Shown: in pieces, positions 45,577-49,787 of the stretch
Layout: every line of letters starts with the position of its first letter
Numbering within the stretch: the first letter of the stretch is position 1
Source: Cellulomonas sp. RIT-PI-Y
GTDB lineage: Bacteria; Actinomycetota; Actinomycetes; Actinomycetales; Cellulomonadaceae
Assembly: GCF_025642745.1 (NCBI RefSeq)
Contig: NZ_JANZKP010000001.1
Location: forward strand, 1 to 64,000
Direction: 5' to 3'
DNA: 64,000 nt
The notes under the pieces: generated by a model
Database searches by the model: none
Told to the model about the DNA's origin: nothing
What the model saw: the letters and a program-made list of their open reading frames with translations, nothing else
Translations under genes and position numbers: made by a program

Positions 45577-45605
45577 ACGATCCGCAACGGTCGGAGGCGA
45601 TGGGC

Positions 45606-46223
45606 ATGACGGTGGGACGACGCGAACGCGCACGGCTCGACAAGGAGAGCCGGATCTTCGCCGCCGCCAGCGAGCTCTTCGACGCGCACGGCTTCGACCG
45701 GGTCACCACCCAGCAGATCGCCGAACAGGCGGACATCGGCGCGGGCACTCTGTTCCGCTACGCCGCCAGCAAGGGCGAGCTGTTCCTCATGGTGTTCAAC
45801 CAGCGCCTCGCCGCTGCCGTCCGGGCCGGATCGCAGGCCGCGGACCAGGAGACCGACCTCACCGCCGCGGTGTGCGCCCAGGTGGAACCGGTCCTGGTCT
45901 GGGCGCACGGCACGGACGACGCCGCCGACTACCAGCGCGAGCTGTTGTTCGGCGACGCCACCGAGCGCTACCGGACCGAGGGCCTGGCGATCGTCGCCGA
46001 TCTGGAGGACCGGATCGCCCGGCTGCTGCTGGCCCGGCACCCCGGTGACACCCGAGCGGCCCGGCGGGCGGCGCGAACGGTGTTCGCCGTCCTCAACCTG
46101 CTGCTGGTCCAGCCGTTCAACTCCCTGCACCCCGACGACGACGCGGCCGGTGAGCTCCGGGCCCAGGTCGCCCAGGTCGTCGCCGGATATCGCCACACCA
46201 CCCCGGAACACCCCGCCGGTTGA
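45606..46223 (+). CDS. TetR-family regulator of the oleate hydratase operon
   Basis: 205 aa. HTH domain RIFAAASELFDAHGFDRVTT, QQIAEQADIGAGTLFRYAASKGELFLMVF; helical C-terminus. The ATG at 45606 has GGAGG eight bases upstream; the ATG at 45600 is too close to it. It precedes the oleate hydratase gene by 46 bases, an arrangement also known for TetR regulators that sense fatty acids, so a long-chain fatty acid ligand is a reasonable inference. Confidence 0.88.
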   Translation: MTVGRRERARLDKESRIFAAASELFDAHGFDRVTTQQIAEQADIGAGTLFRYAASKGELFLMVFNQRLAAAVRAGSQAADQETDLTAAVCAQVEPVLVWAHGTDDAADYQRELLFGDATERYRTEGLAIVADLEDRIARLLLARHPGDTRAARRAARTVFAVLNLLLVQPFNSLHPDDDAAGELRAQVAQVVAGYRHTTPEHPAG

Positions 46224-46269
46224 CCCACCGACGAGGACGGACCCCCATCATCACCAGGGAAGGAACGTC

Positions 46270-48030
46270 ATGCGTCACACCAACGGCAACTACGAGGCGT
46301 TCGCCCGGCCACGCAAGCCGGACGGCGTCGAGCACAAGACCGCACTGTTCGTCGGAGCCGGACTCGCGTCCCTGTCCGGCGCGGCGTTCCTGATCCGTGA
46401 CGGCCAGATGCCCGGCGACCGGATCACCGTGCTGGAACGACTGGACCTGCCCGGCGGCGCGCTCGACGGGATCAAGGAGCCGAAGAAGGGCTTCGTCATC
46501 CGTGGCGGGCGGGAGATGGAGGACCACTTCGAGTGCCTGTGGGACCTGTTCCGCTCGATCCCCTCCCTGGAGGTCGAGAACGCCAGCGTGCTGGACGAGT
46601 TCTACTGGCTGAACCGCGACGACCCGAACTTCTCCCTGCAACGCGCCACGGTGGACCGCGGTCGGGACGCCCACACCGACGGCCTCTTCACCCTGAGCGA
46701 GAAGGCGCAGAAGGACGTCGTCCGGGTCTTCCTCGCCACCCGGGAGGAGATGGAGGGCAAGCGCATCGACGAGGTGTTCGGCCGCGAGTTCCTGGACAGC
46801 AACTTCTGGCTGTACTGGCGCACGATGTTCGCGTTCGAGGAGTGGCACTCCGCGCTGGAGATGAAGCTCTACCTGCACCGGTTCATCCACCACATCGGCG
46901 GGCTCCCGGACTTCTCCGCGCTGAAGTTCACCCGGTACAACCAGTACGAGTCCCTGGTCCTGCCGCTGTACACCTGGCTGCTCGACCAGGGCGTGCGCTT
47001 CGAGTTCAGCACCGAGGTCACCGACGTGGACTTCGACCTGAGCGCCGACCGCAAGCAGGCGACCGCGGTGCACTGGATCCGGGACGGACAGGACGGCGTG
47101 ACCGATCTCGGCCCGGACAACCTGCTGTTCCTGACCATCGGCTCGTTGACCGAGAACTCGGACAACGGCGACCACCACACCCCGGCCCGACTGGATGACG
47201 GCCCCGCACCCGCCTGGGACCTCTGGCGCCGGATCGCCGCCAAGGACCCGTCCTTCGGCCGCCCGGACGTCTTCGGCTCGCACATCCCGGAGACCGCCTG
47301 GGAGTCCGCGACGGTCACCACCGTGGACCCGCGCATCCCGGCCCATATCCAGAGGATCGCCCGGCGGGACCCGTTCAGCGGGACGGTCGTCACCGGCGGC
47401 ATCGTGACCGCGAAGGACTCGGCCTGGCTGCTGTCCTGGACGGTCAACCGCCAGCCGCACTTCAAGCAGCAGAAGCCCGGCGAGTGCGTGGTGTGGGTCT
47501 ACAGCCTGTTCATCGACCGTCCCGGCGACTACGTGCGCAAGCCGATGCGGGACTGCACCGGCGAGGAGATCACCCGGGAGTGGCTCTACCACCTCGGTGT
47601 CCCGATCGACCAGATCGACGAGCTGGCCGCGACCGGGGCCAAGACCGTTCCGGTGATGATGCCCTACGTCACCTCGTTCTTCATGCCCCGTCACGCCGGC
47701 GACCGACCGGACGTGGTCCCCGAGGGCGCGGTCAACTTCGCCTTCATCGGCCAGTTCGCCGAGACCGGCCGGGACTGCATCTTCACCACCGAGTACTCCG
47801 TGCGCACCCCGATGGAGGCGGTCTACACCCTGCTCGACATCGAGCGCGGCGTCCCGGAGGTCTTCGCCTCCACCTACGACGTCCGTGCCCTGCTCGCGGC
47901 GACCAGCCGCCTGCGGGACGGCGCGGAGGTCGCGGTCCCCGGCGGACGTCTCGGCCGGCGCCTGGTCGACCACCGGATCGACGACAACCAGATCGGCGAG
48001 CTGCTGCACGAGTTCCGGCTCCTGCAGTGA
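46270..48030 (+). CDS. ohyA: Oleate hydratase
   Basis: 586-aa FAD-dependent fatty acid hydratase that adds water to the cis-9 double bond of unsaturated fatty acids, giving 10-hydroxy acids. It has the dinucleotide motif FVGAGLASLSGAAFLIRDG, the family segment GGREMEDHFECLWDLFRSIP, YNQYESLVLPLYTWLLDQGV, and the C-terminal block NFAFIGQFAETGRDCIFTTE. Length is within the usual 550-650. GGAAGGAA precedes the ATG closely. The role is probably detoxification of membrane-active fatty acids, under the TetR regulator upstream. A perfect hairpin follows. Confidence 0.96.
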   Translation: MRHTNGNYEAFARPRKPDGVEHKTALFVGAGLASLSGAAFLIRDGQMPGDRITVLERLDLPGGALDGIKEPKKGFVIRGGREMEDHFECLWDLFRSIPSLEVENASVLDEFYWLNRDDPNFSLQRATVDRGRDAHTDGLFTLSEKAQKDVVRVFLATREEMEGKRIDEVFGREFLDSNFWLYWRTMFAFEEWHSALEMKLYLHRFIHHIGGLPDFSALKFTRYNQYESLVLPLYTWLLDQGVRFEFSTEVTDVDFDLSADRKQATAVHWIRDGQDGVTDLGPDNLLFLTIGSLTENSDNGDHHTPARLDDGPAPAWDLWRRIAAKDPSFGRPDVFGSHIPETAWESATVTTVDPRIPAHIQRIARRDPFSGTVVTGGIVTAKDSAWLLSWTVNRQPHFKQQKPGECVVWVYSLFIDRPGDYVRKPMRDCTGEEITREWLYHLGVPIDQIDELAATGAKTVPVMMPYVTSFFMPRHAGDRPDVVPEGAVNFAFIGQFAETGRDCIFTTEYSVRTPMEAVYTLLDIERGVPEVFASTYDVRALLAATSRLRDGAEVAVPGGRLGRRLVDHRIDDNQIGELLHEFRLLQ

Positions 48031-48035
48031 GCTCC

Positions 48036-48075
48036 GGGCTGCTGCCGAGAGCGGATCCGCCCCCGGCAGCAGCCC
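48036..48075 (+). terminator. Terminator of the oleate hydratase operon
   Basis: Perfect 12-bp inverted repeat GGGCTGCTGCCG ... CGGCAGCAGCCC with a 16-base loop, starting 6 bases after the stop codon. Confidence 0.8.
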
Positions 48076-48111
48076 CTTCTCGCCGCCTCCACCCCGGGCG
48101 ACGGTGGACCC

Positions 48112-48729
48112 ATGACCGACACCCCCGCCCCGCCGCGGTTCACCGCGGACGCCCGCCGCTCCCTCTACGACCAGCGCGTCCTGGTCCTGGACGGACCGCT
48201 CGACGACGACAACGGCACCCTGCTCGCCAGTCAGCTGGTGGCCCTGGCCGCGATCGACCCGGCCGCCGACATCGCCCTGTGGATCCACTCCCCCGGCGGC
48301 TCGGTCCCGGCCATGCTCGCGATCCGGGACCTGATGCACCTGGTGCCCTGCGACGTCTCCACCCTGGCACTCGGGATCGCGTACAGCGCCGGACAGTTCC
48401 TGCTGTCCTCCGGCACACCCGGCAAGCGGCGCGCCCTGCCGCACGCCCGGGTCCTGATGCACCAGGGATCCGCCGGGATCGGGGGCACCGCGGTCGACGT
48501 CGAGCTCCAGGCGGACGACCTGCGCCACACCCGGGACACCGTGCTCGGCCTGATCGCCCAGGACACCGGGCAGCCACGTGACCGGGTGTTCGAGGACAGC
48601 CTGCACGACCGCTGGTACACCGCCGCCGAGGCACGCGACTACGGCTTCATCGACACGATCGTGGACGACTTCGCGGCGATCCGCCCGCAGCGCCCGCGCG
48701 GTCTGGCCGGGTTCGGGGGTGTGGCATGA
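48112..48729 (+). CDS. ClpP-like serine protease with intact triad
   Basis: 205 aa, caseinolytic protease proteolytic-subunit fold. The triad can be traced: Ser92 in GIAYSAGQFLL, His117 in HARVLMHQGSAG, and Asp166 in LHDRWYTAAEARDYG. The oxyanion region WIHSPGGSVPAMLAIRDLM is normal. The sequence departs from the housekeeping ClpP1/P2 (YSAG instead of ASMG), so it is an accessory copy. It overlaps the next clpP-like gene by 4 bases and probably forms mixed rings with that subunit, served by a ClpC/ClpX unfoldase encoded elsewhere. Confidence 0.9.
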   Translation: MTDTPAPPRFTADARRSLYDQRVLVLDGPLDDDNGTLLASQLVALAAIDPAADIALWIHSPGGSVPAMLAIRDLMHLVPCDVSTLALGIAYSAGQFLLSSGTPGKRRALPHARVLMHQGSAGIGGTAVDVELQADDLRHTRDTVLGLIAQDTGQPRDRVFEDSLHDRWYTAAEARDYGFIDTIVDDFAAIRPQRPRGLAGFGGVA

Positions 48730-49313
48730 GCACCTACACCATCCCGAGCGTGGTCGCCCAGCACCCGCGCGGCGACCGGATCATGGACGTCTACTCCCAC
48801 CTGCTGACCGAGCGGATCGTCTACCTGGGCACCGCCCTGGACGCCGGGGTCGCGAACGCGCTGATCGCGCAGCTGCTGCACCTGGAGGCGGACGCGCCGG
48901 ACCGGGACATCCAGCTCTACATCAACTGCGAGGGCGGCGACCCGTCGGCGATGCTCGCGGTCTACGACACGATGCGGTACATCAGGCCGCAGGTGGCGAC
49001 CAGCTGCGTCGGCCAGGCGGTGGCGGTCGGCGCCGTGCTGCTGGCCGCGGGCGCCCCGGGCAAGCGCGCCGCCCTCCCCCACGCCCGGGTGGTGCTGCAC
49101 CAACCTGTCGCGCAGGGCCGAGGTGCGATCCCGGACCTGATCCTGGCCGCCGACGAGGTGGTCCGGATCCGGTCGGAGATGGAGGGCATCCTGGCCGAGC
49201 ACTCCGGTCAGAGCGTGGAGCGGCTGCGGGCCGACACCGACCACGACCGGGTGTTCACCGCCACCGGCGCGCGGGAATACGGGCTGATCGACCAGGTGAT
49301 CGACCGGCGGTGA
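48726..49313 (+). CDS. ClpP-like subunit lacking the catalytic serine
   Basis: 195 aa, full-length ClpP fold. The active-site helix reads CVGQAVAVGAVLLAAG (94-109): Ala100 stands where the nucleophilic Ser of GQAASMG is expected. His125 (VVLHQPVAQG) and Asp174 (DHDRVFTA) remain. The start of the oxyanion segment is also changed to NCEGGDPSAM. Other ring-contact regions (DVYSHLLTERIVYLG, DTMRYIRPQVAT, EMEGILAEHSGQ) are typical, so it should assemble but not cleave, as in ClpR-type subunits of cyanobacteria and plastids. It is coupled to the active paralogue. Confidence 0.9.
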   Translation: MSTYTIPSVVAQHPRGDRIMDVYSHLLTERIVYLGTALDAGVANALIAQLLHLEADAPDRDIQLYINCEGGDPSAMLAVYDTMRYIRPQVATSCVGQAVAVGAVLLAAGAPGKRAALPHARVVLHQPVAQGRGAIPDLILAADEVVRIRSEMEGILAEHSGQSVERLRADTDHDRVFTATGAREYGLIDQVIDRR

Positions 49314-49317
49314 CCGG

Positions 49318-49647
49318 TCAGGCGGCCAGCCCGAACGGCGCGAACAGCACTGCGCCCGAGGGCCGGCCGCCCCCGGTCAGCTCCTGGGACACCCCGACCG
49401 TGAGGTCGAGCAGCGTCACGCCCAGCGCCCCGGCCACCGCCGCGATCATCTCGCTGGACGGGTCCTTGACCCCGCGCTCCATCTCGGACAGGTACTGCGG
49501 CGAGACACCCGCCCGCTCGGCGGTCTCGCCCAGCGTCTCACCCCGCTCGTGCCGCAGCCGGCGCAGCCGCAGGCCGAGCAGCTCGCGCCACAGGGGCTCG
49601 CGCCCGCGACGGATCGGGGACACGGGACGCGGGGTGGCGACGGTCAT
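49318..49647 (-). CDS. ClgR/PopR-like XRE regulator of clp genes
   Basis: 109-aa helix-turn-helix activator of the ClgR/PopR family: LLGLRLRRLRHERGETLGET, AERAGVSPQYLSEMERGVKDPSSEMIAAVAGALG. ClgR in Streptomyces, Corynebacterium and Mycobacterium activates clp genes, and PopR controls a second clpP pair; both are themselves degraded in a ClpP-dependent way through a C-terminal Ala-Ala signal. This protein ends FGLAA, the same kind of degron. It lies convergent to the clpP-like pair, 4 bases from its end. The ATG is 5 bases after TACCGT on the minus strand. Confidence 0.85.
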   Translation of the reverse strand: MTVATPRPVSPIRRGREPLWRELLGLRLRRLRHERGETLGETAERAGVSPQYLSEMERGVKDPSSEMIAAVAGALGVTLLDLTVGVSQELTGGGRPSGAVLFAPFGLAA

Positions 49648-49687
49648 GCCTCACGGTAGGCCGGGGCGACCGGCGGTAGGCCGTCTT

Positions 49688-49700
49688 CTGCTCAGAGCAG
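49688..49700. promoter_or_regulatory. Perfect palindrome CTGCTC-A-GAGCAG upstream of clgR-like gene
   Basis: 13-bp perfect palindrome about 41-53 bases before the clgR-like ATG. A GGCCTACCG 9-mer also occurs twice between it and the gene. Possible autoregulatory site; it does not obviously match the published ClgR box. Confidence 0.4.
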
Positions 49701-49787
49701 AGCGGTCCCCGCCGGCCGACGTCGTCTCGCTCGGCCCCCCTGACCGCGACGGTGGTGGCCCTCGGCGCGGCCACGGGGCCGGGTGCG

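Follow-up and report, generated by a model that had tools for sequence, protein, structure and literature searches.

The Cellulomonas locus analysed here is an accessory ClpP pair of the Streptomyces clpP3-clpP4-popR kind, and not a new kind of circuit, in which the second ClpP subunit carries an alanine at the position of the nucleophilic serine. Judged from sequence, broken second-subunit triads are the rule in several lineages, including Streptomyces, and have arisen more than once, whereas triad loss spares the partner subunit and, with one exception, the housekeeping ClpP pair. We consider it probable that the locus encodes an inducible backup core like the PopR-controlled ClpP3P4 of Streptomyces: one ring would cut, and the other, catalytically dead, would dock the unfoldase.

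Organization of the locus

The window, by which we mean the whole stretch of 64,000 nucleotides that was analysed, carries the following features.

48041-48070, forward strand: predicted PopR-type operator, GCTGCC-3N-AGCGGATCCGCC-3N-GGCAGC, matched to the published site
48101-48105, forward strand: putative ANNNT -10-like element, immediately preceding the start codon of clpP3 and suggested by conserved upstream columns
48112-48729, forward strand: clpP3-like gene, protein P0001 (205 aa; CLP_protease, PF00574) with Ser92/His117/Asp166, proposed catalytic subunit
48726-49313, forward strand: clpP4-like gene, protein P0002 (195 aa; CLP_protease, PF00574) with Ala100 for Ser, proposed docking subunit
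49023-49025, forward strand: GCG codon of Ala100, the nucleophile position of P0002, placed by sequence and alignment
49318-49647, reverse strand: popR-like regulator gene, protein P0003 (109 aa; Pfam HTH_31/HTH_3), convergent to the clpP pair
49321-49329, reverse strand: codons of the C-terminal Leu-Ala-Ala of P0003, a predicted degradation signal by analogy with S. lividans PopR
49687-49701, no strand assigned: half-operator dyad TCTGCTCAGAGCAGA, predicted to serve popR autoregulation and located 40 bases upstream of the gene

The two clpP reading frames have the four bases ATGA (48726-48729) in common, so that the coupling by a 4-base overlap described in a sequence-only reading of this DNA is borne out, and the convergent regulator that it saw ending in GLAA is a helix-turn-helix protein with the C-terminus FGLAA. 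The core of that reading is supported: an active and an inactive ClpP lie next to a regulator of the PopR/ClgR kind that ends in Ala-Ala, and this linkage is conserved at orthologous loci. Only one further clpP pair exists in the genome (3.5 Mb in 94 contigs); it lies on contig C18, and neither of its triads is broken. The Streptomyces-type ClpP3P4/PopR system is characterized by an accessory pair of neighbouring clpP genes in addition to a housekeeping pair elsewhere, and by an adjacent helix-turn-helix regulator that ends in Ala-Ala, all of which are found here; the PopR operator upstream of the pair, likewise characteristic, is present as a sequence match only. Directly upstream of clpP3 (window positions 45600-48030) lie genes of the TetR type and of the MCRA family (Pfam MCRA), the latter presumably oleate-hydratase-like. 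The idea that conservation reaches past the clpP3-clpP4-popR trio was rejected, the MCRA-family gene having no relative in the 80 loci L035-L114.

Active sites of the two subunits

When both proteins are placed in one alignment, Ser92/His117/Asp166 of P0001 and Ala100/His125/Asp174 of P0002 fall in the same columns, in agreement with the sequence-only reading. No other serine replaces Ala100, because the best solved ClpP aligns with P0002 without a gap over residues 5-195 and has its Ser at the Ala100 column; this alignment and that of the triad columns rule out a different active-site Ser in P0002. P0002 has thousands of matches; of the best 120, among which the query is counted, 104 have Ala-His-Asp and 14 have Ser-His-Asp, the remaining two being Ala-His-Ala and Gly-His-Asp. 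A lone sequencing error as the source of Ala100 was therefore rejected, since 104 of the 120 closest proteins are likewise Ala-His-Asp. The best 120 of thousands of matches to P0001, again with the query, are Ser-His-Asp without exception (120/120).

P0002 resembles ClpR in having no complete Ser-His-Asp triad. By sequence it is not closest to the ClpR lineage: among the NCBIfam models the general ClpP model, PRK00277, scores highest (238.7 bits), and PRK12552, which we take to be a ClpR-like model, gave 157.3 bits against a cut-off of 263. P0002 may thus work like a ClpR, yet it is not filed as one by sequence models. An AlphaFold model of P0002 built from a shallow alignment (22 close sequences) had a mean pLDDT of 47.2 and a pTM of 0.41, values too low for structural conclusions.

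Triad loss across lineages

We examined 168 loci from four sources: 30 (L005-L034) from a search of 58 genomes including the own genome, 80 (L035-L114) from a clade-profile scan of named genomes, 28 new ones (L115-L142) found when 396 genomes of the phylum were searched, and 30 (L143-L172) from 61 genomes of the family of genome G079, which we call Streptomycetaceae because the G079 ClpP4 is 89-98% identical to the proteins listed for it, mostly named Streptomyces, one odd record excepted (see below). Twenty of the 168 loci were left out of the counts, as their ClpP was unpaired or, in the case of L172, belonged to a housekeeping-like pair. The accessory second subunit was taken in 148 loci and the first in 147, L104 being cut by a contig end. 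Three genomes (G079, G299 and G387) occur twice among the 148 rows and other rows are identical, which leaves 142 distinct sequences.

In the first subunit, Ser, His and Asp are each present in 147/147 loci. Of the 148 second subunits, 75 have Ala, 50 Ser, 22 Gly and 1 Asp at the nucleophile column; the His column holds His in 119, Gly in 25, Asp in 2, Thr in 1 and Asn in 1, and the Asp column Asp in 140, Glu in 5 and Ala in 3. Among the 142 distinct second subunits, 118 have a broken triad and 24 an intact one, a ratio that is not a prevalence because 80 loci were picked by their likeness to P0002. Broken triads make up 10/29 in the search of relatives, 75/79 in the named near clade, 8/9 in the phylum search, 24/24 in Streptomycetaceae and 1/1 for the own locus. 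ClpP4 of the Streptomyces type reads LLGQP where ClpP has LLHQP, and among the best 120 proteins of this type the catalytic His column holds Gly in 118, Ala in one and His in one; this last is an odd record of 331 aa, 84% identical to the G079 ClpP4. As a control, the housekeeping subunits were examined in 40 genomes in which an accessory locus had been found as well, the ClpP1 of one not being recovered: the triad is intact in 40/40 ClpP2 and 38/39 ClpP1, that is, in 78 of 79 subunits. The exception is the housekeeping ClpP1 of genome G049 (L194), with MLQP for MHQP and thus Leu for the catalytic His; the accessory ClpP4 of the same genome (L022) has Ala-Thr-Glu at its triad.

A quick maximum-likelihood tree was built from 150 rows, the 142 accessory second subunits and 8 outgroup sequences, with the triad columns left out; support is below 80 on 64 of its 147 inner branches, and several rows sit on long branches. 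The accessory rows, Streptomyces ClpP4 and P0002 included, form one group set apart from the outgroup (support 99), which supports common descent. Loss is the likely direction of change, because triads are intact in the outgroup and in the 13 members of a basal group on this tree. The fewest changes between intact and broken that it requires are 9, losses and regains counted together, or 23 for the full triad state. There appear to have been separate losses in the Streptomyces group (His to Gly), in a large clade (Ser to Ala or Gly), in L140 (Asp to Ala, Ser and His being kept) and in L014/L015, which have Ala for Ser beside intact sisters of the same genus (support 91-93).

Four rows inside the Ala/Gly clade carry Ser (L053, L084, L091 and L103). 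These four ClpP4 proteins, of Actinomadura hibisca, Janibacter limosus, Microbacterium halotolerans and an uncultured Microbacterium, are candidates for regained activity or a retained Ser. At the Ser column the codons are TCN for Ser and GCN for Ala in all rows; since they differ by one base, regain of Ser would be easy. Inactivity of the second subunit is not strictly required, given the 24 intact triads and these four near-clade members with Ser again. The sequence-only reading had expected to fail if orthologues were found in which the pair has an intact Ser and the regulator is not linked or does not end in Ala-Ala. Intact orthologues do occur, so that this outcome is partly seen; but the triad was lost several times and the regulator is still in place, which makes the point stronger and does not remove it.

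In the titles, abstracts and passages of the literature that we consulted, no statement was found that ClpP4 lacks a triad residue. Triad loss is nevertheless not claimed here as unpublished, because 21 of the 121 Clp proteins in a survey from 2008 are putatively inactive homologues, which its consulted passages do not name (PMC2605481). What is new here comprises the predicted operator with its -10-like element, the popR half-site, the counts of regulator linkage and the repeated triad loss in the second subunit.

The regulator and the control region

The sequence-only reading had proposed looking for a regulator ending in LAA at orthologous loci, and the regulator is indeed linked: it is present in 143 of the 148 pair loci, in all 143 on the opposite strand and downstream, at a distance of at most 500 bases in 128 and of more than 1000 in 15. 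Of the five loci lacking it, all but L085 break off within 400 bases of the pair. Its C-terminus is Ala-Ala in 136/143, the others being LVA (5), LAS (1) and SSA (1). In most of the Microbacterium loci (L092-L114) a distance of 1.3 to 2.9 kb separates regulator and pair. The own genome has the tmRNA tag ADSKRTDFALAA, ending in FALAA, which the FGLAA end of PopR and the AYALAA and AFALAA ends frequent in the clade resemble.

P0003 scores 57.7 bits with the ClgR model NF041677, below its curated cut-off of 170, and no protein of the own genome exceeds that cut-off. A better, likewise sub-threshold ClgR candidate (122.6 bits) is encoded on contig C10 (L223); it ends in APIG, without Ala-Ala, so that its turnover may differ from that of Streptomyces ClgR. 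With its own ClgR candidate below threshold and lacking the Ala-Ala end, the feedback network at large may also differ from that of Streptomyces.

The published S. lividans PopR site reads TCTGCC-3N-GGCGAATCTGCC-3N-GGCAGA (PMC9775585), and the 30-bp window site, GCTGCC-GAG-AGCGGATCCGCC-CCC-GGCAGC, differs from it in 5 of 24 letters. A site with at most 7 differences is found in 136/147 upstream regions, against 0.45/147 in single-base shuffles. In the own genome, the only mismatch-free match to an operator-derived pattern is the predicted operator itself, and four further operator-like places have 3 mismatches each (reversed-pattern control, 0 and 1). The operator lies 41 bases before clpP3, whereas in the Streptomycetaceae loci L128-L171 of that type the distance to the start codon is about 107-158 bases. 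In 77 of 80 near-clade upstream regions a start codon stands at the aligned start, and among these 77 A is found at -11 in 91% and T at -7 in 91%; an ANNNT element so close to the start codon would fit a leaderless clpP3 mRNA, predicted to begin at 48112, and would put the activator close to the -35 position.

The half-site upstream of popR, for which 0.02 occurrences are expected in the window, recurs with at most one mismatch in 65/140 loci, against 0.2 in shuffles, and is predicted to mediate autoregulation. It is poor (3 or 4 mismatches) in 52/140 loci, most of the listed Streptomycetaceae rows among them.

Proposed mechanism and alternatives

In Streptomyces, PopR is reported to activate clpP3P4 and to be degraded by ClpP1P2 with ClpX or ClpC2, clpP3P4 being a backup that is turned on when the ClpP1P2 core fails (PMC9765437, PMC12607617). 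By analogy, the housekeeping ClpP1P2 of Cellulomonas would destroy PopR via its Ala-Ala end, as shown in Streptomyces. Failure of housekeeping Clp capacity would let PopR accumulate, bind 48041-48070 and activate the clpP3-clpP4 mRNA, and PopR would, to go by the half-site, probably also act at its own promoter. Because PopR would then report ClpP1P2 failure, the self-contained circuit proposed by the sequence-only reading is not supported. Viala and Mazodier reportedly described in 2002 that ClpP3P4 is also able to degrade PopR; if so, the loop would gain a second, self-limiting arm.

P0001 and P0002 are expected to form a two-ring core with split roles. Three positions of the docking pocket of Streptomyces ClpP1/ClpP2 (PMC9765437) were located from their spacing to the catalytic Ser. 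They are Gln63, Tyr65 and Tyr85 in P0002, Tyr65 being kept in 146/148 second subunits and position 85 varying (Tyr 82, Phe 39, His 26, Trp 1), and Ala55, Trp57 and Leu77 in P0001, with Leu77 in 116/147. At its N-terminus P0002 further retains the stretch found in ordinary ClpP (Pro7 in 147/148, Arg18 in 148/148), which is 8 residues shorter in P0001. The ClpP3-type ring with its shortened N-terminus would thus be the cutting ring, and the ClpP4-type ring, with N-terminal loop and docking tyrosine kept, would hold ClpX or ClpC and not cut. In Streptomyces ClpP1P2, the ATPases are reported to dock on ClpP2 only, and a Ser-to-Ala change leaves full activity in ClpP2, the docking-subunit Ser being dispensable, whereas the same change in ClpP1 abolishes activity (PMC9765437); docking on ClpP2 alone is reported for M. 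tuberculosis as well (PMC4416901). P0001 and P0002 would work in the same way, evolution repeating on the docking ring the laboratory mutation of ClpP2. The triad of this ring would have been lost repeatedly, by different mutations, because catalysis is dispensable there, in a subunit that remains under purifying selection.

A different arrangement is the mixed ring proposed by the sequence-only reading; active and inactive subunits would alternate in each heptamer and the dead one would dilute the active sites, for which the ClpR rings of Synechococcus offer a parallel. Plastid ClpR1-4 are likewise described in one ring with ClpP1 (PMC7966870). We regard this as unlikely: ClpP1P2 is described as stacked homoheptamers, inferred for Streptomyces (PMC9765437) and stated for M. 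tuberculosis (PMC4416901), and the differences between P0001 and P0002 in N-terminus and docking patch parallel those between ClpP1 and ClpP2, so that by analogy two homo-rings are the likelier architecture. It is also quite unlikely that P0002 mainly modifies the housekeeping core by joining ClpP1 or ClpP2 and altering its activity, in the manner of ClpP-ADEP of the ADEP producer, which is reported to form hybrid complexes and to inhibit ClpP1 (PMC12607617). P0002-type subunits have a partner of their own in 147/148 loci, the exception being L104 at its contig end, and the operon is described as silent in wild-type Streptomyces (PMC9765437).

Neutral decay, with a redundant second subunit drifting towards a pseudogene, would agree with the fact that the lost residues differ by lineage and that 6/35 same-genus genomes show only the housekeeping pair. 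We hold it to be highly improbable, and it is largely refuted by the dN/dS values and by the restriction of the Ser column to Ala, Gly, Ser and a single Asp. By a simple Nei-Gojobori count over near-clade pairs with dS of 0.1-1, which are not independent, the median dN/dS is 0.193 (2532 pairs; maximum 0.475) for the second subunit and 0.235 (2317 pairs) for the first, which indicates that the altered second subunit is under purifying selection; the 119 nearest proteins to P0002, the best of thousands of matches, are also at least 79% identical to it. Within the backup-core reading, the repeated loss might itself be adaptive: a docking ring immune to acylation and trapping would keep the backup working when natural products poison ClpP1P2, and the parallel losses of Ser, His and Asp would then mark a self-protection that senses drug damage via PopR stability. 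We advance this tentatively and find it rather doubtful; the reports that ClpP3P4 is insensitive to ADEP (PMC12607617) and that beta-lactones are lethal to S. coelicolor lacking clpP3 clpP4 (PMC9775585) are pointers to it and no proof.

Comparison with known systems

The closest counterpart, clpP3-clpP4/PopR of S. lividans and other Streptomyces, shares with the window the gene pair, its company of a housekeeping clpP1-clpP2, the coupled regulator with an Ala-Ala end and the 30-bp operator; the second subunit has lost Ser in the window (Ala100) and His in the Streptomyces type. Housekeeping ClpP1P2 of Streptomyces and mycobacteria likewise consists of a docking-adapted and a cutting-adapted subunit, but the control subunits nearly all keep their triads, unlike the second subunit of the window. 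Cyanobacterial, plastid and apicoplast ClpR is also a triad-defective ClpP homologue paired with an active ClpP. P0002 differs in matching general ClpP models best, in standing under a PopR-type regulator and in belonging to a type of inactive subunit that appears to arise several times inside one actinobacterial family. ClpP-ADEP, an accessory ClpP that also alters core composition, is described as a single gene near an antibiotic cluster and as closest to ClpP1 (PMC12607617).

Most accounts treat ClpP3P4 as a spare ClpP core. Should the second ring be catalytically dead in Streptomyces and numerous other actinobacteria, the count of active sites and the response to inhibitors need re-reading, as does the division of labour between ClpP1 and ClpP2. 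The lineages would, moreover, provide a natural series of conversions from ClpP to a ClpR-like state, through changes at different residues and even within a single genus, with which the purpose of dead ClpP subunits is testable on purified proteins.

Relatives of the window ClpP4

Among the matches listed, the nearest named relatives of P0002 are those of Cellulomonas taurus (96%) and C. denverensis (93%), and relatives at least 79% identical also include Nocardioides, Frankia, Pseudofrankia, Georgenia and Phytoactinopolyspora. The window ClpP4 is 86% identical to that of Phytoactinopolyspora, a member of another family, against 55-63% to those of the same-genus genomes fetched (L006-L034). 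Its being closer to proteins of other families than to those of these same-genus genomes suggests either that the gene was transferred horizontally or that the genus contains ancient paralogues.
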